In this document: in pieces, positions 2,343 through 14,524 of the stretch
How the letters are laid out: each line of letters starts with the position of its first letter
How positions within the stretch are numbered: position 1 is the first letter of the stretch
Assembly: GCF_007671675.1 (NCBI RefSeq)
Contig: NZ_VCGW01000004.1
Location: 186,001-250,000, forward strand
Length of the DNA: 64,000 nucleotides
Source: Marinobacter maritimus
GTDB lineage: Bacteria > Pseudomonadota > Gammaproteobacteria > Pseudomonadales > Oleiphilaceae
Direction: 5' to 3'
Position numbers and translations under genes: made by a program
Notes under the pieces: generated by a model
What the model was told of the DNA's origin: nothing
Database searches by the model: none
Seen by the model: only the letters and a program-made list of their open reading frames with translations

Positions 2343-3122
2343 ATGAGCGATCTGATTCAGCTCGAAAAACGCGGACACATTGCGATACTGACCATCAATA
2401 ACCCGCCGGCCAACACCTGGACCGCTGACTCCCTGCACGCTCTGACAAAAATCGTTCGTGAGCTCAATGAAGACAAGGACATTTTTGCGTTGGTTCTGAC
2501 CGGGCAGGGTGAGAAGTTCTTCTCCGCCGGAGCCGATCTTAAAACCTTTGCTGATGGCGACAAAGCCCGGGCCAACGACATGGCTCAACTTTTTGGCGAA
2601 GCCTTTGCGGCATTGACAGCATTCCGGGGCGTCTCCATCGCCGCTGTGAACGGTTACGCCATGGGTGGCGGCCTTGAGTGTGCACTTGCCTGTGATATCC
2701 GCATTGCCGAAGAACATGCCCAGATGGCGCTGCCAGAAGCAACGGTTGGCTTGCTACCTTGTGCTGGCGGCACCCAGAACTTGCCGTGGGTCGTGGGTGA
2801 GGGTTGGGCCAAGCGTATGATTCTTTGCGGTGAGCGGGTCAAGGCTGACAAGGCACTGCAGATTGGGTTGGTTGAAGAGGTTGTGGCCACAGGCAAGGGC
2901 CTGGAGAAGGCGCTGGAGCTGGCTGAAATGGCGTGCAAACAGAGCCCGTCTTCGGTTGCCCGCTGCAAGACTCTGGTGATGAGTTCTCGTGATGGCCGCA
3001 GCCACTCTGATAGCTGGCGCATGGAGCGTGAGCTGTTTGTTGAGCTGTTCTCAACCGAAGACCAGAGAGAGGGCGTGAATGCCTTTCTGGAAAAACGTAA
3101 GCCGGAATGGAAAAACCGCTGA
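2343..3122 (+). CDS. Enoyl-CoA hydratase (probable methacrylyl-CoA hydratase)
   Basis: Crotonase-family hydratase of 259 residues, expected to hydrate methacrylyl-CoA to 3-hydroxyisobutyryl-CoA. The oxyanion-hole segments KFFSAGADLK and AMGGGLECALACDIRIAE are intact, and the catalytic Glu region ALPEATVGLLPCAGGTQ is present. An in-frame GTG at 2340 is possible, but the ATG at 2343 sits 7 nt after AGGAG and is the better start. It lies between the dehydrogenase and the hydrolase of the same pathway. Confidence 0.9.
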   Translation: MSDLIQLEKRGHIAILTINNPPANTWTADSLHALTKIVRELNEDKDIFALVLTGQGEKFFSAGADLKTFADGDKARANDMAQLFGEAFAALTAFRGVSIAAVNGYAMGGGLECALACDIRIAEEHAQMALPEATVGLLPCAGGTQNLPWVVGEGWAKRMILCGERVKADKALQIGLVEEVVATGKGLEKALELAEMACKQSPSSVARCKTLVMSSRDGRSHSDSWRMERELFVELFSTEDQREGVNAFLEKRKPEWKNR

Positions 3123-3153
3123 AAACCGAAACATACCGGTTCAAGGATTTCTT

Positions 3154-4236
3154 ATGAGCAACCAACCGATTGTTTTTGAAGAGTGGAAAACCGCCGACGG
3201 CGCATTGATTGCCGTAGCCCGGCTAAATACGCCCAAGGCGCTCAACTCGCTCTCTCTTGAGATGATTCGGATGCTGACGCCACAGCTCAAAAGCTGGGCT
3301 GAGGATGACCGCGTTCGCGCCGTATGGATTGAGGCCGAAGGCGATAAGGCGTTCTGTGCAGGCGGAGACATAGTCGCGCTTTACAGGAGCATGACCGAGC
3401 CTCAGAGCGGAAGCGGCGCCAGCATCGGCACTGCGTTCTTCACTGAAGAATATGAAATGGATTATCTGATCCATTCGTTTCCGAAGCCTGTGGTGTGCTG
3501 GGGACATGGCATTGTGATGGGTGGTGGCATTGGCATCATGGCAGGCGCTTCCCATCGGGTAGTTACTGAAGCATCGATGCTGGCCATGCCCGAGAGCAGT
3601 ATCGGGCTCTACCCGGACGTTGCGGCGGGCTGGTTCCTGAATCGAACCCCCGGGCGCACGGGGCTTTTTCTGGGGCTAACCGGTGCTCGCATGAATGCGG
3701 CCGATGCCCTGTTCGTAGGCCTTGCCGATCGCTTTATCAAACATGAACACAAAGCGGCTGTGGTCGCCGATCTGACCGCACACAACTGGCAGGGTGAAGA
3801 CGCCTTCGCCGTGGTGGGCAGCGTACTCCGGCAGCATGAGAATCAAAGCGCTGACGCCTTGCCTGAGTCTCAGGTACGGACGCATTTCGATGAGATAAAC
3901 CGTGTCACTGATGCCGACAGCCTGGCTGATATGGTTGCGCAGATGAAAGAGCTTGCGAGCGGTGACGGCTGGCTTGCCAAATCAACCAAGCCATTGGAGA
4001 CCGCATCGCCAACGTCGCTGGCGCTTTGCTGGCAGCATTTGCGTAACTGCCGTCTGGATAGCCTTCGCGAGGTTCTCGATAAAGAGCTTACACTCTCCCA
4101 GAACTGCCTCACCAAAGGCGAGTTTGCCGAAGGTGTGCGGGCGCTCCTGATCGACAAGGATAAACAGCCGCGCTGGCGCTACGCATCGCTGGAGGAAATC
4201 GACAGCGAGTGGATTGACAGCTTTTTCGAAAACTAG
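3154..4236 (+). CDS. 3-hydroxyisobutyryl-CoA hydrolase
   Basis: Crotonase-fold hydrolase of 360 residues that releases 3-hydroxyisobutyrate from its CoA ester. It shows AFCAGGDIVALY, HGIVMGGGIGIMAGASHRVV and MPESSIGLYPDVAAGW, the pattern that separates HIBCH proteins from simple hydratases, together with the longer C-terminal half. An upstream ATG at 3079 would overlap the preceding gene by 44 bases; the ATG at 3154 follows AAGGA and was chosen. The product feeds MmsB, encoded next. Confidence 0.92.
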   Translation: MSNQPIVFEEWKTADGALIAVARLNTPKALNSLSLEMIRMLTPQLKSWAEDDRVRAVWIEAEGDKAFCAGGDIVALYRSMTEPQSGSGASIGTAFFTEEYEMDYLIHSFPKPVVCWGHGIVMGGGIGIMAGASHRVVTEASMLAMPESSIGLYPDVAAGWFLNRTPGRTGLFLGLTGARMNAADALFVGLADRFIKHEHKAAVVADLTAHNWQGEDAFAVVGSVLRQHENQSADALPESQVRTHFDEINRVTDADSLADMVAQMKELASGDGWLAKSTKPLETASPTSLALCWQHLRNCRLDSLREVLDKELTLSQNCLTKGEFAEGVRALLIDKDKQPRWRYASLEEIDSEWIDSFFEN

Positions 4237-4296
4237 CCAAACAGGGCGCCTGAGCGGGCGGCCTACTCAACCGAATACAAAAACAAGGGGATGAAT

Positions 4297-5184
4297 ATGG
4301 CAACGATTACCTTTATCGGCTTGGGCAACATGGGTGGCCCTATGGCCAGCAACCTTGTAAAAGCCGGGCACGACGTAACTGTGTTTGATCTCTCAAAGGA
4401 CGCAGTCGCTGCACTGGTTTCCGAAGGCGCAAAAACCGCAGACACGGCCCACGAAGCGGCCAAAGGCGCGGAGTGCGTGATCACCATGCTGCCGGCCGGC
4501 AAGCACGTTGAAGCGGTATATCTGGGTGAAGACGGTTTGCTTGCGGCCCTGCCCGGGGGCACTCTGGTTATTGATTCGTCCACCATCTCGCCGGAAACGG
4601 CTCGTGGGGTAGCGGAACAGGCCGAGGCCAAACACATTCCATTCCTTGATGCCCCGGTTTCAGGCGGTGTGGGTGGCGCCAAAGCGGGCACTCTGAGCTT
4701 TATCTGTGGTGGCGATGAGGGCACCTTCAATAAAGCGAAGCCAATTCTTGAAGACATGGGCAAGAACATTTTCCACGCCGGCGACCACGGTGCGGGTCAG
4801 GTTGCCAAAATCTGCAACAACATGCTGTTGGCCATCCTGATGGCAGGCACCAGTGAAGCTCTGGCTCTGGGTGTGAAAAACGGGCTGGATCCAGTAGTAC
4901 TTTCTGAGGTCATGAAGCAGAGTTCCGGCGGTAACTGGGCGTTGAATGTCTATAACCCCTGGCCCGGAGTTATGGAAGCGGCGCCCGCATCACGAGGGTA
5001 CGAAGGCGGCTTTCTGGTTGATTTGATGAACAAGGATCTTGGTTTGGCGTTCGATAATGCCGTGAAGAATCACGCAGCAATTCCCATGGGCTCTCTCGCC
5101 CGCAACCTGTTTGAGCTTCACGCAGGGCAGGGTAATGGGACACTGGATTTCTCCAGCATCCAGCGTCTGTACAAGCCTGACTAA
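4297..5184 (+). CDS. mmsB: 3-hydroxyisobutyrate dehydrogenase
   Basis: NAD-dependent dehydrogenase of 295 residues that forms methylmalonate semialdehyde, the substrate of MmsA. The N-terminal GLGNMGGPMA is the Rossmann motif, DAPVSGGVGGAKAGTL is the substrate-binding signature, and GAGQVAKICNN carries the catalytic Lys. The ATG at 4291 would directly abut the AAGGGG ribosome-binding site; the ATG at 4297 has 6-nt spacing and is preferred. It ends the valine operon and is followed by a hairpin. Confidence 0.95.
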   Translation: MATITFIGLGNMGGPMASNLVKAGHDVTVFDLSKDAVAALVSEGAKTADTAHEAAKGAECVITMLPAGKHVEAVYLGEDGLLAALPGGTLVIDSSTISPETARGVAEQAEAKHIPFLDAPVSGGVGGAKAGTLSFICGGDEGTFNKAKPILEDMGKNIFHAGDHGAGQVAKICNNMLLAILMAGTSEALALGVKNGLDPVVLSEVMKQSSGGNWALNVYNPWPGVMEAAPASRGYEGGFLVDLMNKDLGLAFDNAVKNHAAIPMGSLARNLFELHAGQGNGTLDFSSIQRLYKPD

Positions 5185-5190
5185 TACCCA

Positions 5191-5216
5191 CCGGGGCGCG
5201 ATTTTTCGTGCCCCGG
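5191..5216 (+). terminator. Hairpin after mmsB
   Basis: Eleven-base-pair GC-rich stem (CCGGGGCGCGA with TCGTGCCCCGG, one G-U pair) with a 4-nt T loop, starting 6 nt after the mmsB stop. No T-tract follows, so it may be a weak terminator or an mRNA 3'-end stabiliser. Confidence 0.5.
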
Positions 5217-5397
5217 AATCTCCCTCCAGGAACCCCTTTCCCCAGCCAGTCCATTCCTGTCTTTCATATCTCTGTATGTCAGCGCAAATACTGTTGAGCA
5301 AGATAACTATAAGTACGACAATGAAGTTTCTGAATGGTGGATCGGTAGCGAGTAAAGCGTAGCCGGTTTCTGATCACGGTTGCGGGCTGTTTTACCT

Positions 5398-6443: not shown

Positions 6444-6471
6444 CGGAATAACTTTTCAGCTGAATCGTCAT
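6444..6471 (+). promoter_or_regulatory. ECF-type promoter upstream of the Ala-rich protein gene
   Basis: CGGAATAA (6444-6451), a 14-nt spacer, then CGTCAT (6466-6471). The words and the exact spacing match the two divergent promoters at 9436-9463 and 9471-9500, so this is read as a target of the ECF sigma factor encoded at 9519. The start codon is 46 nt downstream. Assignment rests on pattern matching only. Confidence 0.6.
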
Positions 6472-6517
6472 CAAGATGAAAACTACCCATAAAGGGTCAT
6501 CAAAGGAGGACGAAGTT

Positions 6518-7024
6518 ATGAAAAAACGTATCCTGACATTTGCCATCTGTTCCATCCTTTCTACCGGTGTTTATGCCGCCGAGGGCTCTGGTTCTGCCAA
6601 TGTGCAAGCCGACGCCAACATGAACGCCAGCGCCAGTTCTAATAATGGCGTTTCTGCCCAAGGCGATGGATCAGCTTCCGCTGAAGGTAATGTAAATGGC
6701 GAGGCTGCACGTCGCGAGGCCTCTGAGGAGGCCCGCGCTGCCAGTAGCGAAGCGCGCCAGAAAAAGAATGCAGCCGTTCGTGCCGGTGTCGAGACAGGTG
6801 AGAAAGTGCGCAGTAAAGCTAGCGCCACTGCAAATGCGGCCACGACTACGGCCGCTGAAAAACGTGCAACCGCGCAGGATCGCATGAGCAAGGCTCGCAA
6901 TGCCGAACTCCGGTTGGAAACCAATCAGCAAGTCGGTACCTCGGTTTCCGATTCGGTAAAAAGTGAAGTCCAGAAGTCCGTGAAAGGAAGTGTGAAGGGT
7001 ACCGCCGGTGGCCGTGTATTTTAA
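6518..7024 (+). CDS. Secreted Ala/Ser/Asn-rich low-complexity protein
   Basis: I do not recognise a family. The 168-residue product starts with a Sec signal peptide (MKKRILTFAICSILSTGVYA, likely cut after residue 20). It continues with a Gly/Ser/Asn/Ala-rich region to about residue 60, a charged Ala/Arg/Glu region likely to be helical (about 65-130), and a Ser/Val/Lys-rich tail. It has no cysteine after the signal. An ATG at 6476 is in frame, but the ATG at 6518 follows AAAGGAGG with good spacing. A strong terminator follows at once. An ECF-type promoter precedes it, linking it to the sigma factor at 9519. A structural or adhesive envelope role is speculation. Confidence 0.75.
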   Translation: MKKRILTFAICSILSTGVYAAEGSGSANVQADANMNASASSNNGVSAQGDGSASAEGNVNGEAARREASEEARAASSEARQKKNAAVRAGVETGEKVRSKASATANAATTTAAEKRATAQDRMSKARNAELRLETNQQVGTSVSDSVKSEVQKSVKGSVKGTAGGRVF

Positions 7025-7041
7025 TCACCCCGGATAGCAGT

Positions 7042-7068
7042 AGCCGGGCCTTTTGGCCCGGCTTTTTT
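7042..7068 (+). terminator. Rho-independent terminator
   Basis: Perfect 9-bp stem AGCCGGGCC / GGCCCGGCT with a TTTT loop and a T6 tract, 17 nt after the Ala-rich protein stop and only 18 nt before the next start codon. It would set a high expression ratio of the Ala-rich protein over the beta-barrel gene. Confidence 0.9.
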
Positions 7069-7086
7069 CTGGCCAGGAGATGCCTT

Positions 7087-8055
7087 ATGACGTTGAATAA
7101 ATTCTTGTACAGGTTGCCGCTAGCGGTCGTGCTCTGTGCAACGACCCCGTTTCTTTATGCCTCGGAGCATGCCGAACTGAATGGCCATGTGGAGGGCGGA
7201 ATGGAGTACGACAGTAACTTGACTGTAGACGAGCTGAACCGTTCGTCTGACTCCAGTGATGAAGCCTGGGTGTACGACGCTGGGTTGGAAGCTATTCTGA
7301 AACCGGCCAAAGCTTTGAATTTGACGATGGGCTACTCGCTTTCCGGTAGCCGCTATCAGAGCAACGATGAGTTTGATCAGGATATTCATTTGGCTTCTGC
7401 GGATCTGAGCTACGATTTTGATCCGGTCACGCTGGGCACCAGCTACCACTATTCCCGCGCCACACTGTCCTCCGACCCTTTCCTGGACTTCAAACGAGCC
7501 AGTGTCTATCTGGGAAGTCTTGTAGGGGAAGATGTCTATGTGATGGCCAGCCTGCAGGACAAATCCAAGGATTTTGAAGAGGGCAGTGCCCGAGATGCCG
7601 ATATTCGAGGTGTCAGTATGGATGCCTTTTTCTTCTTTAACGAAGCCCGCAGTCACCTGTTGATCGGAGTAGATGGCGATCAGGAAGACGCCGGCGCCGA
7701 TGCTTACGACAATCGGCTGATTCGCGTTCGTGTCAGTCTGGCTCACAAGTTCCTGATGGCGGAGCAGGAAAACCGTCTGCGCCTGAAATGGCGTTACGAA
7801 AACCGGGAATATGATGAAATCAGCATCGCACCGTCTGATCCGCTGCTTAACAACCCGCTCACTGAGGATTTGCAGGAGCGCACCTCGGATCGGCGAATAG
7901 ATAGGATTTACATCGTCGAAGCTGGCTGGCGCATCGGCCTGAGCGAGGTGTTGAGTTTGGAACCACACATTTCTTTCGGCCATTACACATCGAACGTGGC
8001 GTCTGCGGACTACGATAAAACCGTTGCGGGCGTTACGCTTCGGGCGGGGTTTTGA
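7087..8055 (+). CDS. Predicted outer-membrane beta-barrel protein
   Basis: No family recognised with certainty. The 322-residue protein has a signal peptide (cleavage likely after PFLYA, about residue 26). Alternating hydrophobic/polar stretches with aromatic girdles follow (GYSLSGSRY, TLGTSYHYSR, RLRLKWRYENREYDE, LSLEPHISFGHYTSN), and it ends in Gly-Phe, the terminal Phe expected of BAM-inserted barrels. CCAGGAGA precedes the ATG. It lies just after the Ala-rich gene's terminator and its 3' end overlaps the convergent subtilase gene by 23 bases. It may be the outer-membrane partner of the secreted Ala-rich protein. Confidence 0.72.
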   Translation: MTLNKFLYRLPLAVVLCATTPFLYASEHAELNGHVEGGMEYDSNLTVDELNRSSDSSDEAWVYDAGLEAILKPAKALNLTMGYSLSGSRYQSNDEFDQDIHLASADLSYDFDPVTLGTSYHYSRATLSSDPFLDFKRASVYLGSLVGEDVYVMASLQDKSKDFEEGSARDADIRGVSMDAFFFFNEARSHLLIGVDGDQEDAGADAYDNRLIRVRVSLAHKFLMAEQENRLRLKWRYENREYDEISIAPSDPLLNNPLTEDLQERTSDRRIDRIYIVEAGWRIGLSEVLSLEPHISFGHYTSNVASADYDKTVAGVTLRAGF

Positions 8056-9400
8056 GCCGCTCTGACCGATCGTCCAGAAAACCGTGGCCGAAGCTTGGGT
8101 CATGGCCTTTTTCGCCCAGATCTTCAGCATCGTTGATCAGCGCCCGCAACGCCTGCTCCGGGCTCAGCCGGAGCAGGCGACAGGCGAGCAGAGCTGCAAC
8201 CACTGGCGAGGCCAGGGATGTGCCGCTTTTAGTAACCTGGCTGCCATCAGGGTGCGCCACAGTAATGTCCACACCGCGGGCGGCGAATGCCACCTGTTGT
8301 CCCCGATTCGCCCACCGATACAAAGCTCGATTATTATCCACGGCCGTCACGCCGATCACGCCGTCATACGCCGCAGGGTAAAGTGGCGGCGCGGCGGGTC
8401 CTTCATTGCCCACCGCGGCCACCAGAGTAACGCCCTGCTGATGTAAGCGCCTGATCACCGATGCCAATATCCGGTTATCTGGCCCGGTCAGGCTGATGTT
8501 AATTACCGCGACCTTTTGCTCGGTCAGCCAGTTTAAACCCTCCAGGAGATGTGCGAGTGTCGCCCCCGATGCCACATCGGAACGCTTGTAGAACACTGAG
8601 GCACTAAAGAGGCTGGCGCCCGGTAGTCGCGCCTCTGCTTGTGTTGAAGGTCGTCCCACCAATACGCTGGCGACGGCAGTGCCGTGAGCCTGGGGCTCGG
8701 CAAGATCGCCGGTGTGGTTGCCCACCGCCAGGAAGCGTTGTTGAACGATACGGGCCTTGGAAAATGCGGGGTGTTCGTTATTGACGACAGTGTCTACCAT
8801 GCCTACACGCACTGGCTCCGTGCACAGGCTGCGAACGGACGGGCTGACCGCTTGCGGCTCAGCCTGATGAGGTGTGCTTTGCGGCGTGTAGATGTGATTG
8901 CGGTCGAGCTGATCTGCCAGTTCCGGCAGCAGCTCGCGCAGCGCCGCATGGGAATCCCGCTCCGGGCTCACCCGAAAACGCACCACGGTGAGCCCGAGCC
9001 CGTTAAGTTGCTGGCGTTGCAGGATCGTGATGTCGGGGTGACGGAGCTGGCTCAGCTCTTCTTCAGAAGCAGTCAGCAGCCATTGTCTTGCTACCGCCCG
9101 GGTTCCGTCGCTTTGGCGAGCGTCGAAGAAGGCGGTCACGCCGTCACGGGTTTTTATCGGTAGCATCTCTGGCAGTGATGCTTCAAGGCCCGTTGGTACC
9201 TCAGAGGCCTCAGCAATGCGACGATTGGTGTCCTCAGTGATCTTGCGCTCGACCAGCCGTTCAGCTCTGCGTTCGACCTGATTGGTGATGGCTTCAATCC
9301 TTCCATCAAGCAGGTTGCTCGGGCCGGCACCCAGGGCCTGCGCGGGAAGCACGGGAAAGGTCAGGAAGATAAGCAGACGGATATTCAATCGAGGTATCAT
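8033..9400 (-). CDS. Secreted S8 (subtilisin-like) serine protease
   Basis: Subtilase of 455 residues. A signal peptide (about 1-24) is followed by a charged, probably helical N-terminal region (30-70) and a prodomain-like segment (80-170). The catalytic domain has Asp203 (VGMVDTVV), His239 (AHGTAVAS), oxyanion Asn332 (AVGNEG) and Ser395 (SGTSLASPVVAAL). The start at 9400 gives a proper signal sequence; a longer frame to 9502 would cross the divergent promoter region. It is transcribed divergently from the ECF sigma gene, from a promoter sharing the same spacing. It probably acts in the periplasm or outside the cell, perhaps on the module's own envelope proteins or on the anti-sigma factor (inference). 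Confidence 0.9.
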   Translation of the reverse strand: MIPRLNIRLLIFLTFPVLPAQALGAGPSNLLDGRIEAITNQVERRAERLVERKITEDTNRRIAEASEVPTGLEASLPEMLPIKTRDGVTAFFDARQSDGTRAVARQWLLTASEEELSQLRHPDITILQRQQLNGLGLTVVRFRVSPERDSHAALRELLPELADQLDRNHIYTPQSTPHQAEPQAVSPSVRSLCTEPVRVGMVDTVVNNEHPAFSKARIVQQRFLAVGNHTGDLAEPQAHGTAVASVLVGRPSTQAEARLPGASLFSASVFYKRSDVASGATLAHLLEGLNWLTEQKVAVINISLTGPDNRILASVIRRLHQQGVTLVAAVGNEGPAAPPLYPAAYDGVIGVTAVDNNRALYRWANRGQQVAFAARGVDITVAHPDGSQVTKSGTSLASPVVAALLACRLLRLSPEQALRALINDAEDLGEKGHDPSFGHGFLDDRSERLKTPPEA

Positions 9401-9435
9401 TGTGTGCAACCATAATTTGTCGGGCTTTATGCAAG

Positions 9436-9463
9436 ATAACGGCTGGGTCGGAAAATAATTCCC
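9436..9463 (-). promoter_or_regulatory. ECF-type promoter for the S8 protease
   Basis: Read on the minus strand: GGGAATTA (bases 9456-9463), a 14-nt spacer, then CGTTAT (9436-9441). It lies about 35 nt upstream of the protease start. Its -35 and -10 words and its spacer match the plus-strand promoter of the sigma gene only 8 bases away, forming a divergent pair. Confidence 0.65.
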
Positions 9464-9470
9464 GATCAGC

Positions 9471-9500
9471 GGGAATAAACCCTGATGTGAGCCGTTATAC
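9471..9500 (+). promoter_or_regulatory. ECF-type autoregulatory promoter of the sigma/anti-sigma operon
   Basis: GGGAATAA (9471-9478), a 14-nt spacer and CGTTATAC (9493-9500), with the sigma ATG 18 nt further on. ECF sigma genes commonly control their own promoter, and the same words occur before the protease and the Ala-rich protein. Confidence 0.65.
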
Positions 9501-9518
9501 ACCTAACACATAGCAACA

Positions 9519-10019
9519 ATGAGCGCCATGCGACAGGAACTTACCCGACTACTGCCCGGTTTACGACGCTTTGCATACTCATTGACCGGTTCCATGCCCG
9601 ACGCGGATGATCTACTGCAGAGTACAGTAGAACGGCTGCTGAGCCGCTCGCGCCCGGATGATGCAGACATTACACGATGGGCATTTCGGGTTTGCCGGAA
9701 TGTGTGGATAGACGAGTGCAGGGCCAGAAAGGTTCGTAGGAACGCTGCGGAACAGCCGGAACTGACCGAAGGCCTGGTGGTTGATGGGGAGCGTCAGGTG
9801 GCCAACGAAATCGAGGTTAGTCGGGTCGATGAAGCCATGGGTCGATTGCCAGAAGATCAACGCCAGATAATCTCTCTGGTGGCTATCCAGGGGCTTTCGT
9901 ATCAAGCCGTTGCCGAGATCCTGTCGGTGCCCAAGGGTACTGTAATGAGTCGGCTGGCCCGGGCCCGGGTCGCCTTGAGCGATGCGCTCACGCCTGAAAC
10001 AACGAGGACCGACAAATGA
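9519..10019 (+). CDS. ECF-family RNA polymerase sigma factor
   Basis: Sigma-70 family ECF protein of 166 residues. Region 2 covers about residues 8-75 (LRRFAYSLTGSMPDADDLLQSTVERLL). Region 4 covers about 105-160 and holds LPEDQRQIISLVAIQGLSYQAVAEILSVPKGTVMSRLARAR. It directs transcription from alternative promoters, here probably the three CGGAATAA/CGTTAT-type sites. The stop overlaps the anti-sigma start (ATGA). A second in-frame ATG at 9528 is possible. Confidence 0.95.
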   Translation: MSAMRQELTRLLPGLRRFAYSLTGSMPDADDLLQSTVERLLSRSRPDDADITRWAFRVCRNVWIDECRARKVRRNAAEQPELTEGLVVDGERQVANEIEVSRVDEAMGRLPEDQRQIISLVAIQGLSYQAVAEILSVPKGTVMSRLARARVALSDALTPETTRTDK

Positions 10020-10747
10020 CCAGAGTTGATGAAACCCTCTGTGCTTTTCTTGACTGCGAGCTGTCGCCTGAGGAAATGCAGCAGATCCGGAACCGGTTGG
10101 CGGTGGAGCCCGCTCTTGCGGCACGACTTGGTGAGTTGGCATTGGTTGATCAGACCTTGAAGGCTCATTACGGCGAAATTGATGGCCGGCCTCTGCCAGA
10201 AGCGGTGAATCAGATGTTAGCAACCACGCGCGATGAGCCTGAACGACCGAACAAAGTGCTCCGCTTTCCGCTCTGGCAGCGGCTTCAGGCGCATACCGGT
10301 AAGGCTATTGCCGCAGCTCTGGTTGCCGGCTTTGCACTGGCTCAGTGGCTGTCACTGACACCGGCCGGCACCGATGCAGCTTGGCATTCGGTGGCGCAAG
10401 GGCTGGAAACCACACCCAGCGGCGTCAGCTCCACTCTGGCTACCGGAGAACAGCTGATGCCGCGACTGACCTTTGTGAATCAAGAGGGGGAATACTGTCG
10501 CCAGTTCCGGCTGCAAGGCCACGCCCGGAGCTCTGAGAATATTGCCTGCCGCAGCGCCGCTGATACTGGTGGCTGGAGCTTGGCGGTGCGTGTGGAAGTG
10601 GCAGACACGGTTCCTGCTGATCGTTATCAGGTAGCCAGTGGTGGTTCGGTGCTGGATGATACGCTGGATCAGATGATATCTGGACCGTTGGTTGCACCAG
10701 ACGCCGAGCTGCGCCTGATTCAACAAAACTGGGCAGCCCAGCCTTAA
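10016..10747 (+). CDS. Membrane-bound anti-sigma factor
   Basis: Protein of 243 residues, translationally coupled to the sigma gene by a 4-nt overlap. Residues 1-70 form an N-terminal helical anti-sigma domain (VDETLCAFLDCELSPEEMQQI) without the HxxxCxxC zinc motif. One transmembrane helix lies at about 96-114. The C-terminal periplasmic domain carries two Cys in EYCRQFRL (residue 161) and ENIACRS (178), a pattern seen in proteobacterial transmembrane anti-sigma proteins. It probably holds the sigma factor at the membrane and senses an envelope signal, perhaps through the Cys pair. Confidence 0.88.
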   Translation: MTRVDETLCAFLDCELSPEEMQQIRNRLAVEPALAARLGELALVDQTLKAHYGEIDGRPLPEAVNQMLATTRDEPERPNKVLRFPLWQRLQAHTGKAIAAALVAGFALAQWLSLTPAGTDAAWHSVAQGLETTPSGVSSTLATGEQLMPRLTFVNQEGEYCRQFRLQGHARSSENIACRSAADTGGWSLAVRVEVADTVPADRYQVASGGSVLDDTLDQMISGPLVAPDAELRLIQQNWAAQP

Positions 10748-10847
10748 CGCGCGCCGCTCTCGGGAGCAACAAAGCGGCGCTTGATGCTGGGCCGGGCCTG
10801 TGTTGCCCAACCGACGGCTCTTTTCAACACACCCTGAGTAAAACGAA

Positions 10848-11693
10848 ATGAACTTTCCTCTTGTTACAACAGATTGGCTGGCGGACAACCTGGCCAGGAA
10901 AAATCTTGTTCTTCTCGATGCCAGTATGGCCAACGTGATTGGCAGAGAGCCAATTGTGTATGACCTGCCTGTAGTTATTCCGGGGGCGAGGAAGTTCGAT
11001 CTGGAGGGGAGTTTTTGTGATCTGAACTCTACGCTGGTTCATGCCTTTCCGGGGAAACAGCAGTTCACACGGGAGGCTCGCAAGCTGGGGATAAATGCCG
11101 ACAGCCTCGTCGTTGTTTATGATAATCAGGGTATTTATTCTGCGCCGAGGGCTTGGTGGATGTTTCAGTCCATGGGACACGAAAATACGTTTGTTCTGGA
11201 CGGCGGCCTGCCTAAATGGCTGGCGGAGGAAAGAGAGACCGCTTCCAGCCTGGCGCAGGAGCCTGCAGCATCTGGAAACATCACAGGTACATTTAAATCA
11301 GGCATGGTGTGTGGTTCAGGTTATGTTCTGAAAGCACTGAATGCAGGACAGATAACTGCCGTTGATGCGCGTTCTCCCGAGCGGTTTTATGGGAGGGCGC
11401 CGGAGCCAAGAGAAGGCGTTCGTCGCGGGCATATCCCTGGCTCACACAACCTGCCGTTTGCCCAGGTGCTGAATGAACACAGCTTCAAAAGTGCCGAGCA
11501 GTTAAAGTTAATTTTTGCGAGAGCCATGCCAGCGGATAACCTGCAAACCGTGTTTTCCTGCGGCTCTGGCATCACAGCCTGCATTATATTGATGGCGGCT
11601 GTTATTGCGGGCAATGAGAATAACCTGCTGTATGACGGCTCCTGGGCTGACTGGGGAAGCAATCCGGCTTTGCCGGTTGCTACATCAGAATGA
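10848..11693 (+). CDS. sseA: 3-mercaptopyruvate/thiosulfate sulfurtransferase
   Basis: Two-domain rhodanese of 281 residues. The N-terminal domain (1-140) is the inactive type and contains NADSLVVVYDNQGIYSAPRAWW. The C-terminal domain carries the active-site loop CGSGITA with Cys238; this CGSG(V/T/I)TA form points to the mercaptopyruvate-preferring SseA group rather than thiosulfate rhodaneses. It transfers sulfane sulfur to thiol acceptors in the cytosol. Its stop overlaps the start of the small Cys-cluster protein, suggesting an operon. Confidence 0.9.
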   Translation: MNFPLVTTDWLADNLARKNLVLLDASMANVIGREPIVYDLPVVIPGARKFDLEGSFCDLNSTLVHAFPGKQQFTREARKLGINADSLVVVYDNQGIYSAPRAWWMFQSMGHENTFVLDGGLPKWLAEERETASSLAQEPAASGNITGTFKSGMVCGSGYVLKALNAGQITAVDARSPERFYGRAPEPREGVRRGHIPGSHNLPFAQVLNEHSFKSAEQLKLIFARAMPADNLQTVFSCGSGITACIILMAAVIAGNENNLLYDGSWADWGSNPALPVATSE

Positions 11694-12231: not shown

Positions 12232-12418
12232 GATGGGCCATATAAAAAGGTAATTATCAGCTCAATTGTTTCAGTGTGGATTGGTAAGAACAAGCTGTTT
12301 TGTCTGCCTGATGAGATCTGGTGCGTTTTTGACACAGAGGGTGTTTGATTAACAGCCGTTTTTGCGACAGAATCCTTGCCTGGATTCATACAGAACCATA
12401 CCTTCAAGGATTGAAGAT

Positions 12419-14524
12419 ATGCCCCAGGCAAACGGATTGCAGTTTACCGCCAGTGTTGGCGACCTCCCCTCTGATCTATTTTCTGTTGTCGGCTATACGC
12501 TGACCGAACGGTTATCCGAACTGTTTCACGGCTGCCTTGAGCTGGCCAGTACCAACCCGGACGTGGGTGCGGGTGAGGTTCTGGAACAGCAGGTGGATCT
12601 GGTGGTCTGGCAGGATGGCGTGCCGCTTCGCCGCTTCACCGGCGTGGTCAACGAGTTTGCCCGGGGTGATTCCGGCCACCGTCGCACCCGCTACGAACTC
12701 ATCATCCAGCCGCCTCTATGGCGCTTGGGGTTGATGCACAACAGCCGCATCTTTCAGACCCAGACCACCGACACCCTCGTGCGCACCCTGCTGGAAGAGC
12801 GGGGCATTGCGAACTCAGTGTTTGATCTCAAGCGCAATCCTCAGGAGCGCGAGTACTGCGTTCAGCACCGGGAAAGTGATCTGGCGTTCATTGAACGCAT
12901 GGCCGCAGAGGAAGGCTGGCACTACCGTTACCAGCACGGCAGTGTAGACGGGGATGAGCAGCCGGGCCTGGTCCTTGCCGACCACCACGGCGACGCACCT
13001 CGCCTCGAACCTGCCGAATACAACGGCAAAGCCGGTGGAAGCACCCAACAGCCGGCGGTCTTCCGTTTCCGCTACGAAGAACGGGTGCGTGCCGCCTCGG
13101 TTGCCATGAAGGACTACACCTTCAAAAATCCTGCTTATGCCCTGATGCACGAACAGAGCGCCGCCAGTGCAAACCAACGCCAGGATTATCAGCACTTCGA
13201 CTACCCGGGCCGCTTCAAAGCCGACGCCAGCGGCCAACCGTTTACCGAAGCAAAGCTGGACGCCCTCAGAAACGACGCCAGTACCGCCCACGGCGAAAGC
13301 AACCGCGTCGACTTTACATGCGGTGCCAAAACCGAACTCACTGAGCACGACAACCCCAGCCTGAATCGGGACTGGCTGCTCACCGCCGTTATCCACACCG
13401 GCAAACAACCCCAGGCCATGGAAGAAGAGGGCGGATCTGAACCGACCACCTATCACAATACGTTCAGTGCCGTGCCCGCTGACAAAACCTGGCGGCCAAA
13501 CCCCGCCCATCGCCCACTCATGGACGGCCCGCAAATTGCCATAGTGACCGGCCCAGAAGGTGAAGAGATTCACTGCGATAAACACGGCCGGGTAAAAGTG
13601 AGGTTTCCTTGGGATCGGCGCCAGCCGCCAAATGAGGTAGAGAGCAGTAAAAACGATGAGCACAGTAGCGCCTGGTTAAGGGTCAGCCAAGGCTGGGCGG
13701 GTGGCCAGTATGGTTTCATGGCTCTGCCGAGAATTGGCAACGAAGTCATCGTCTCCTTCCTCGACGGCGACCCGGATCAGCCCATCATCACCGGCCGAAC
13801 CCATCATGCTACCAACACACCGCCCTACGCGTTACCGGAACACAAAACCCGCACCACCCTGAAAACCCAGACTCACAAGGGAGAAGGCAGCAACGAACTG
13901 CGGTTTGAGGACGAAGCCGACCAGGAACAGATCTACATCCACGCCCAGAAAGATCTCGACCTGCTCACCGAAAACAACCGTACCGAAGTCATCAACAACG
14001 ACAGCCACCTGACCGTTGAGAACGACCGCTTCAGCCACATAAAAGGCAGCAAACACCAAACCATCGACGGCGAAAAACGCGAACAAATCGGCAAAGACCA
14101 CGGCTTCAGCGTAACCGGCTCCTTGCACCTGAAAGCGGGCACCGCCTGGCTCAGTGAATCCGGCACAGAACTGCACATCAAAGCCGGACAGAAAGCGATT
14201 ATTGAGGCGGGTGCTGAGATCACCCTCAAAGCGGGTGGTAGCTTTTTGAAGATTGATCCCACCGGCGTTGCTATCGGTGGGGCTTCTATAAAAATGAACG
14301 CTGGTGGTTCGGCGGGTAAGGGGAGTGGGCAGAAAGTTCAGATTCCGGAGATGCCTGGGGTGGTTGAGGTGAGGGGGGTGGTAAAAGCAGCGCCTGAAAA
14401 GCTGCCAGAATTACCCCAACGCCCCTGGTCAAAACCAGACCAGATACGGGCAATCAGGAACGCAGCGAATCAGGGCAAGGGAATCTGCCAGGTATGCTCT
14501 CCCAAGTCACGAGAGGTTGTTTGA
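12419..14524 (+). CDS. vgrG: Type VI secretion spike protein VgrG
   Basis: T6SS tip protein of 701 residues. The gp27-like region spans roughly 1-370 (LSELFHGCLELAS, REYCVQHRESDLAFIERMAAEEGWHY). The gp5/OB region follows (EIHCDKHGRVKVRFPWDRR, SAWLRVSQGWAGGQYGFMALPRIGNEVIVSFLDGDPDQP). Then comes the repetitive beta-helix needle (about 480-630) and a short tail of about 60 residues without an enzymatic domain. The ATG at 12419 follows AAGGA; a longer TTG-started frame exists. No T6SS structural genes are present, so this is an orphan vgrG island delivering the adjacent cargo. Confidence 0.97.
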   Translation: MPQANGLQFTASVGDLPSDLFSVVGYTLTERLSELFHGCLELASTNPDVGAGEVLEQQVDLVVWQDGVPLRRFTGVVNEFARGDSGHRRTRYELIIQPPLWRLGLMHNSRIFQTQTTDTLVRTLLEERGIANSVFDLKRNPQEREYCVQHRESDLAFIERMAAEEGWHYRYQHGSVDGDEQPGLVLADHHGDAPRLEPAEYNGKAGGSTQQPAVFRFRYEERVRAASVAMKDYTFKNPAYALMHEQSAASANQRQDYQHFDYPGRFKADASGQPFTEAKLDALRNDASTAHGESNRVDFTCGAKTELTEHDNPSLNRDWLLTAVIHTGKQPQAMEEEGGSEPTTYHNTFSAVPADKTWRPNPAHRPLMDGPQIAIVTGPEGEEIHCDKHGRVKVRFPWDRRQPPNEVESSKNDEHSSAWLRVSQGWAGGQYGFMALPRIGNEVIVSFLDGDPDQPIITGRTHHATNTPPYALPEHKTRTTLKTQTHKGEGSNELRFEDEADQEQIYIHAQKDLDLLTENNRTEVINNDSHLTVENDRFSHIKGSKHQTIDGEKREQIGKDHGFSVTGSLHLKAGTAWLSESGTELHIKAGQKAIIEAGAEITLKAGGSFLKIDPTGVAIGGASIKMNAGGSAGKGSGQKVQIPEMPGVVEVRGVVKAAPEKLPELPQRPWSKPDQIRAIRNAANQGKGICQVCSPKSREVV

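Follow-up and report, generated by a model that had tools for sequence, protein, structure and literature searches.

The 64,000-nucleotide stretch of the Marinobacter maritimus genome analyzed here (contig NZ_VCGW01000004.1, positions 186,001 to 250,000, referred to as the window) carries five adjoining genes that probably form an autoregulated envelope module of the RpoE6 type, belonging to group ECF26 of the extracytoplasmic function (ECF) sigma factors. The genes encode an ECF sigma factor, a membrane anti-sigma factor, a secreted subtilisin-like (S8) serine protease, an outer-membrane beta-barrel, and an Ala-rich low-complexity (LC) protein, the last three being the predicted outputs. Regulation of all units by a shared promoter type is well supported by sequence comparison. 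A first-pass annotation made from the letters of the window had described these genes as one regulated system starting at position 6444. The five open reading frames are indeed present at 6518–10747 (window numbering throughout) and the gene set stands, but the start position that it gave belongs to a promoter and not to a gene.

Promoters and regulon

An ECF26-like promoter was found before each transcription unit: GGAATAACTTTTCAGCTGAATCGTCA before the LC/barrel unit (6445–6470, plus strand), GGAATTATTTTCCGACCCAGCCGTTA before the S8 gene (9437–9462, minus strand), and GGAATAAACCCTGATGTGAGCCGTTA before the sigma/anti-sigma operon (9472–9497, plus strand). The strict motif GGAATWA-N14-CGTYA matches the window three times, once before each unit (6445 plus, 9462 minus, 9472 plus). 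The complete 4.35 Mb genome gave the same number of matches, all 3 at the module, and the reversed-pattern control gave 1. With a looser motif 13 matches were obtained in this genome, including the three of the module, against 7 for the control.

The promoter is conserved in relatives. In 35 Marinobacteraceae loci the pattern GGAATW-N15-CGTY was present in 104/104 upstream regions (35 S8, 35 sigma, 34 LC), at 63–74 nt from the chosen start of LC genes and 33–71 nt from that of S8 and sigma genes. For a broader set of 80 gammaproteobacterial loci, described below, we used the loose motif GGAA[TC]-N15-17-CGT[CTA] in regions of 280 nt (sigma, S8) or 205 nt (LC). It was found before 75/80 sigma genes, 65/80 S8 genes, and 64/72 LC genes. 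The background was 96 matches in at most 20,000 random 205-nt windows; 20,000 were drawn and those inside modules were skipped, so the actual denominator is smaller.

The size of the regulon was estimated with the pattern GGAATAAA-N13-CGTY, which gave 58 matches in 33 genomes, 48 of them at the module and 10 elsewhere, while the reversed-pattern control gave 14. Since the outside matches do not exceed the control, the regulon would be essentially the module itself, as far as the motif shows. Four of the 10 outside sites were inspected as candidate additional regulon members and dismissed; all four lie within open reading frames, two of which appear purF-like by eye.

Conservation in gammaproteobacteria

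Among 151 family genomes searched, the anti-sigma gene was found in 40, the barrel gene in 39, and the LC gene in 39. Besides that of the window there are 35 strong anti-sigma loci, and in all of these the barrel, S8, sigma, and anti-sigma genes have the same order and strands. The LC gene is kept in 34/35, the remaining locus being truncated by a contig end. The genes flanking the module are much less constant. HIBDH-like and EamA-like genes, as in the window, lie near the module in one locus only (L032), the sulfurtransferase-like flanking gene in one other (L031), and a weaker EamA relative (39%) is found on the opposite side in L049 and L060. In four weak family loci (L066–L069) the S8, sigma, anti-sigma, and barrel genes are partly rearranged and there is no LC match.

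The gammaproteobacterial set comprises the best 80 of 118 loci found via the anti-sigma gene, 26 from Marinobacter and 54 from other genera including Marinimicrobium, Cellvibrio, Microbulbifer, Rheinheimera, Shewanella, Pseudoalteromonas, Pseudidiomarina, and Colwellia. In 80/80 loci, sigma shares the strand of the anti-sigma gene and S8 is encoded on the other one; barrel and LC are both present in 71/80. Of the 74 loci away from contig ends, 69 have barrel and LC, 3 have neither, 1 has the barrel only, and 1 has LC only (Fisher p 2e-4 for the association, shared descent being ignored). This distribution suggests that the LC-barrel pair was mostly gained and lost together. An LC gene was not called in 8/80 loci. 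Four of these are near contig ends (L086, L111, L130, L139); in L094 the LC and barrel profiles both match one long frame; and L134, L136, and L150 have neither LC nor barrel but keep S8, sigma, and anti-sigma. Conversely, L119 has LC with no barrel match. Taken together, these results support the grouping of the genes into one system in the first-pass annotation: the same ECF-type motif precedes all three units and is conserved in relatives, and synteny and promoters mark the five genes as one conserved, co-promoted module. The lack of co-occurrence in other genomes that the annotation had named as refuting was not observed.

The opposite possibility, that the neighbors are functionally separate and merely travel together, could draw on the orphan or extra LC copies found in some genomes and on a terminator-like hairpin with a T tail that separates the LC and barrel genes (7042–7063, plus strand). 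This explanation is disfavored and appears very improbable, because every unit has the same promoter type, which precedes LC even in L158 and L159 with their inverted LC-barrel pair, and because synteny is maintained across genera although the flanks differ. The hairpin suggests that the LC transcript may be more abundant than that of the barrel.

Some genomes carry what look like partial cassettes. The L197 locus (genome G059, ca. 7895–8531) holds a remnant in which LC is represented by a short frame and the anti-sigma factor by 31 residues of its C-terminus. In L196 (genome G085, 9169–10788) only LC and barrel are found, between what by eye are the same two neighbor genes as those of the L197 remnant. 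The two loci apparently represent two stages of cassette loss. An extra LC copy in L057 (ca. 10676–11252) and an orphan LC gene in L198 (ca. 9977–10507) have GGAAC-N17-CGTY instead of a GGAAT-type site, and may therefore be under a different sigma factor.

Relation to ECF26 systems

The sigma factor gene (9519–10019, plus strand; homologues indicate that the start is perhaps 9528) encodes a protein with sigma-70 regions 2 and 4 according to Pfam/NCBIfam, with PRK12511 as the best NCBIfam match, under its cut-off. It overlaps by ATGA with the gene for the 243-aa anti-sigma factor (10016–10747, plus strand), which has one transmembrane (TM) segment by eye and gave weak Pfam/NCBIfam matches only. 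The divergent S8 gene (8033–9400, minus strand) encodes a 455-aa protein with an N-terminal segment and an I9-like prodomain by eye and a Peptidase_S8 match of 5.6e-30. As expected for a subtilase, the catalytic residues D203, H239, and S395 and the oxyanion Asn N332 are invariant in 30/30 aligned proteins. Since the GTG farther upstream, at 9502, lies ahead of the S8 promoter, 9400 was taken as the S8 start.

The first-pass annotation knew of no described system of this composition. For the core this does not hold: a sigma/anti-sigma pair with a divergent protease is the published arrangement of RpoE6 in ECF26 (PMC6180224). In this 2018 study the RpoE6-EcfR6-SMa0142 arrangement of Sinorhizobium meliloti is called widely conserved in the group, and its section on RpoE6 gives a promoter consensus of GGAATA plus GT with apparent autoregulation, reports strong activation of the protease gene SMa0142 upon RpoE6 overexpression, and calls the role of RpoE6 undefined (PMC6180224). 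The window shares the traits described there: the protease gene is divergent from sigma, a −35 GGAATA and a GT-containing −10 element occur on both the sigma operon and a target, and downstream of sigma lies an EcfR6-homologous anti-sigma gene whose product has a TM segment and a periplasmic domain (PMC6180224).

For direct comparison we used a plasmid locus of S. meliloti LMB1, which consists of a VOC/glyoxylase gene, an S8 gene divergent from sigma, and an anti-sigma gene; its S8 promoter string forms part of the SMa0142 promoter as published (PMC6180224). The sigma factor of the window is 41% identical (1e-35) and its S8 protease 34% identical (3e-50) to the LMB1 proteins. The anti-sigma factors are homologous end to end (hhalign probability 99.8; BLAST identity 22%), with the LMB1 protein taken as EcfR6 from gene order and promoter. 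The two systems thus have in common a divergent S8 gene, a sigma/anti-sigma operon, homologous proteins, and the promoter type, which is GGAAT-N16-CGTT in S. meliloti. They differ in that the LMB1 locus has no annotated barrel or LC gene and carries the VOC/glyoxylase-type gene beyond S8. RpoE1 and RpoE4 of S. meliloti, also ECF26 by publication, have a related anti-sigma layout and GGAAT-type promoters, but sulfite is their signal and sulfite oxidation the process under their control, and the account given of these two systems reports no divergent protease (PMC3511301). Subtilases next to ECF sigma factors are otherwise mentioned, in a passage of one further paper, for group ECF54 (PMC8999054). 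No account of the LC-barrel addition was found in the open-licence literature searched, and the pair looks like an undescribed addition to the known core.

The first-pass annotation was correct in stating that the anti-sigma factor lacks the usual zinc motif. The Hx3Cx2C pattern of zinc-binding anti-sigma (ZAS) domains occurs in 0/39 and 0/29 anti-sigma sequences of two overlapping alignments. As a novelty this was rejected since zinc-less class I domains are common; the published figure for class I anti-sigma domains without the motif is ca. 44% in the survey's account of that class (PMC7406223). An AlphaFold2 model (mean predicted local distance difference test score, pLDDT, of 78.5) has helices in the N-terminal domain and four strands in the periplasmic one, with the linker and membrane part poorly modeled. 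A Foldseek comparison of the model with PDB folds gave nothing at E ≤ 0.001, and PDB sequence searches with the barrel and the anti-sigma factor gave nothing useful. With RseA/RskA-type zinc-less anti-sigma factors the proteins share the helical N-terminal domain without Hx3Cx2C, the TM segment, and a periplasmic domain, and weak Pfam matches were to RseA_N (6/29) and zf-HC2 (11/29). They differ by a periplasmic signature of their own, CR...AC...W; the residues F153, C161, R162, A177, C178, and W187 are invariant in 29 diverse members. The periplasmic domain is weakly similar to 17-kDa antigens (17kDa_Anti_2 in 3/29, best 1.1e-3; DUF5061 in 2/29, best 3.3e-4).

Distribution of the core and role of the protease

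In wider samples the anti-sigma profile matched 141/369 genomes of a class sample (E ≤ 0.001), mostly weakly or partially, with nine above 55 bits including its own; in a phylum sample, matches at 1e-10 were found in 23/398 genomes, again including its own. We compiled 33 more distant loci (22 from the phylum sample, 5 from the class sample, 4 weak family loci, and 2 plasmid loci). All 33 have sigma, 27 have S8, and 8 have the barrel. The six without S8 are L270–L273 (anti-sigma ≤54 bits), L267 (91 bits), and L277 (contig end). Alphaproteobacterial loci (Shinella, Tritonibacter, S. meliloti) have S8, sigma, and anti-sigma genes, and a barrel or LC gene was not seen nearby. By eye, an ABC-transporter-like gene lies near the core in L066, L067, L068, and L229, and a DUF1611-like gene in L066, L067, and L068.

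Rhizobial plasmids frequently carry the three-gene core: with the Shinella anti-sigma factor as query we retrieved 123 records, of which 72 were typed conjugative. The anti-sigma factor of the window gave only four distant plasmid matches, all on alphaproteobacterial megaplasmids. A mobile-element origin of the five-gene module was considered and set aside; no barrel match was found in phages.

Because the S8-sigma-anti-sigma combination persists without the LC-barrel pair, the association of the protease extends to the regulatory core and is not limited to LC and barrel. This bears on two other roles for the protease. The first-pass annotation proposed that the protease might act on the anti-sigma factor or on the secreted protein, with the barrel as its surface partner. 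In a fuller form of this model S8 would be a site-1 protease that cleaves the anti-sigma factor in its periplasmic part and thereby feeds back positively, with LC as gating ligand or substrate. The constancy of S8 as anti-sigma partner agrees with this, both in its opposite-strand position in all 80 gammaproteobacterial loci and in its presence in the 27 distant loci, many of which have no barrel or LC. However, known site-1 proteases are usually not controlled by the sigma factor that they release. The published section on RpoE6 also reports no such role for the protease (PMC6180224), and we regard the site-1 model as unlikely. A role limited to maturation of an LC/barrel surface structure would explain why LC, barrel, and S8 are under one promoter type and fits the frequent co-occurrence of LC and barrel (69/74 loci with both), but loci with neither LC nor barrel (L134, L136, L150, and the alphaproteobacterial loci) still have S8 beside sigma and anti-sigma, which makes such an exclusive role improbable as well. 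S8 is most likely an envelope protease that would clear or mature exported protein.

LC protein, tetrad repeat, and barrel

The LC gene (6518–7024, plus strand) encodes a 168-aa Ala/Ser-rich protein with a signal peptide by eye. It has no Pfam/NCBIfam match, and with 33 diverse members no Pfam family matched more than one member at E ≤ 0.01. Across the family the length varies from 124 to 388 aa and the middle region is variable. The C-terminal tail is conserved and consists of tetrad repeats, encoded at 6932–6994 (plus strand) in the window with valines at positions 139, 143, 147, 151, 155, and 159 (V139, V143, V147, V151, V155, V159). The last 60 residues have a hydrophobic residue at every fourth position in 72/72 LC proteins, a set for which only position, signal peptide, and composition had served as selection criteria. 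Mean periodicity z values were 4.5, 4.8, and 4.1 for lags 4, 8, and 12, and negative for lags 3, 5, and 7. At least 5 consecutive tetrads, with a unit of approximately [TS]-[VI]-[SN]-[SNG], were found in 71/72 proteins compared to 130/3600 shuffles. AlphaFold2 (mean pLDDT 62.8) drew residues 52–162 as helical, with low confidence for the tail (block means ca. 45–61). Given this low confidence the tail may be either helix or beta structure, and the LC model as a whole was too weak for a useful fold search.

The barrel gene (7087–8055, plus strand; 322 aa) overlaps at its 3' end with that of the S8 gene. Its Pfam/NCBIfam matches (EpsL, Porin_4, OMP_b-brl, SlipAM, BBP2) are all below threshold. 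The likeness to EpsL/SlipAM/BBP2 barrels is weak (EpsL 5.6e-6; SlipAM in 19/32 members, best 2.7e-9), and unlike these the window barrel stays under the curated cut-offs and belongs to a conserved module without polysaccharide genes. It does not resemble a TonB-dependent transducer, since the 322-aa protein gave no plug or signaling-domain match in Pfam/NCBIfam.

A secreted subunit, a barrel, and a protease (FapD, family C39) are also parts of the Fap functional amyloid system. By analogy LC could be the subunit of a fibre, with export through the barrel and processing by S8, and the V/I- and S/T/N-rich tetrads do have beta propensity. On the other hand, the protease belongs to class S8 and not C39, the LC proteins have no informative Pfam match, and residues 52–162 are drawn as helix, with low confidence in the tail. 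We thus consider a Fap-like amyloid a rather poor candidate.

Tetrads are not confined to LC proteins. In L066, L254, and L256 the N-terminus of S8 has long acidic V/I tetrads, and in L256 an LC gene with acidic tetrads and the promoter additionally lies before the barrel. In L254 the LC position is occupied by a DUF5666-like secreted protein by eye (2784–5333), with an ECF-type promoter; a similar DUF5666-like secreted protein, again by eye, adjoins the barrel in L069 (1069–2463). A general period-4 likeness between S8 N-termini and LC tails, seen by eye in Marinobacter, was weak, with only half of 36 S8 N-termini at z>2, and did not extend to the 80-locus set in general; the pairing was dropped except for the three loci mentioned. 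Among the 33 distant loci, an LC-like protein or S8 passed the tetrad test in 5/8 barrel loci (L253, L254, L256, L274, L066). It failed in L067 and L068, which have EEAA/EESA repeats, and in L069, which is partly periodic; all three are repetitive by eye. The test also flagged unrelated or wrong-frame open reading frames in L262, L266, L270, L271, L228, and L068, as well as one candidate in the barrel-less alphaproteobacterial locus L263 (11342–12178), a putative secreted protein whose tetrads are LGGT. The barrel-tetrad linkage in the 33-locus set is thus suggestive only.

A tentative extension of these observations is that the tetrad segment (ca. [TS]-[VI]-x-x, 5 to 24 in a row) might be a new assembly or export module recognized by the barrel family. 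LC would present it in trans in most gammaproteobacterial loci, and in some distant loci it would sit in cis at the N-terminus of S8. Barrel and tail could then constitute a system, undescribed so far and controlled by ECF26, for export to or anchoring in the outer membrane.

Proposed mode of action

In the autoregulated module that we propose, the membrane anti-sigma factor would hold the sigma factor until a periplasmic event, possibly sensed by the beta domain with its invariant C161 and C178, sets it free. The released sigma factor would transcribe the three GGAATW-N15-CGTY units, i.e., the operon that encodes it, the S8 gene divergent from this operon, and LC with barrel. Judging from signal peptides and the barrel signature, LC and S8 would be exported by Sec and the barrel inserted in the outer membrane. 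There, LC and barrel may form a paired surface or outer-membrane structure, with the tetrad-repeat tail as assembly element.

Several points weigh against this interpretation. The ECF26 placement is a probable one, made from layout, promoter, and pairwise homology. The promoter motif was derived from the window before it was counted elsewhere, and in its loose form it is absent from 5/80 sigma, 15/80 S8, and 8/72 LC regions. Two of the gaps (L099, L101) are due to a misplaced start, as the same loci show the motif in the Marinobacteraceae set (L060, L052). The 35-locus and 80-locus sets overlap, many Marinobacter records being the same genomes, and loci are related by descent. Furthermore, LC and barrel are kept in the L196 genome although sigma, S8, and anti-sigma are missing, and the L198 genome has a lone LC gene with the site GGAAC-N17-CGTC. 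These two genomes show that LC can occur outside the module.

Downstream of the module, at ca. 1.6 kb, the window carries a gene that by eye is VgrG-like and related to type VI secretion (12362–14524).

Of this system, the sigma/anti-sigma/S8 core (ECF26) was already known and the LC-barrel output is apparently new. Through the strict four-residue tail of LC, the pair suggests a concrete hypothesis on the partner of a family of uncharacterized barrels. If the regulon in gammaproteobacteria is essentially its own cassette, the signal, the protease substrate, and the output would all be testable in one locus.

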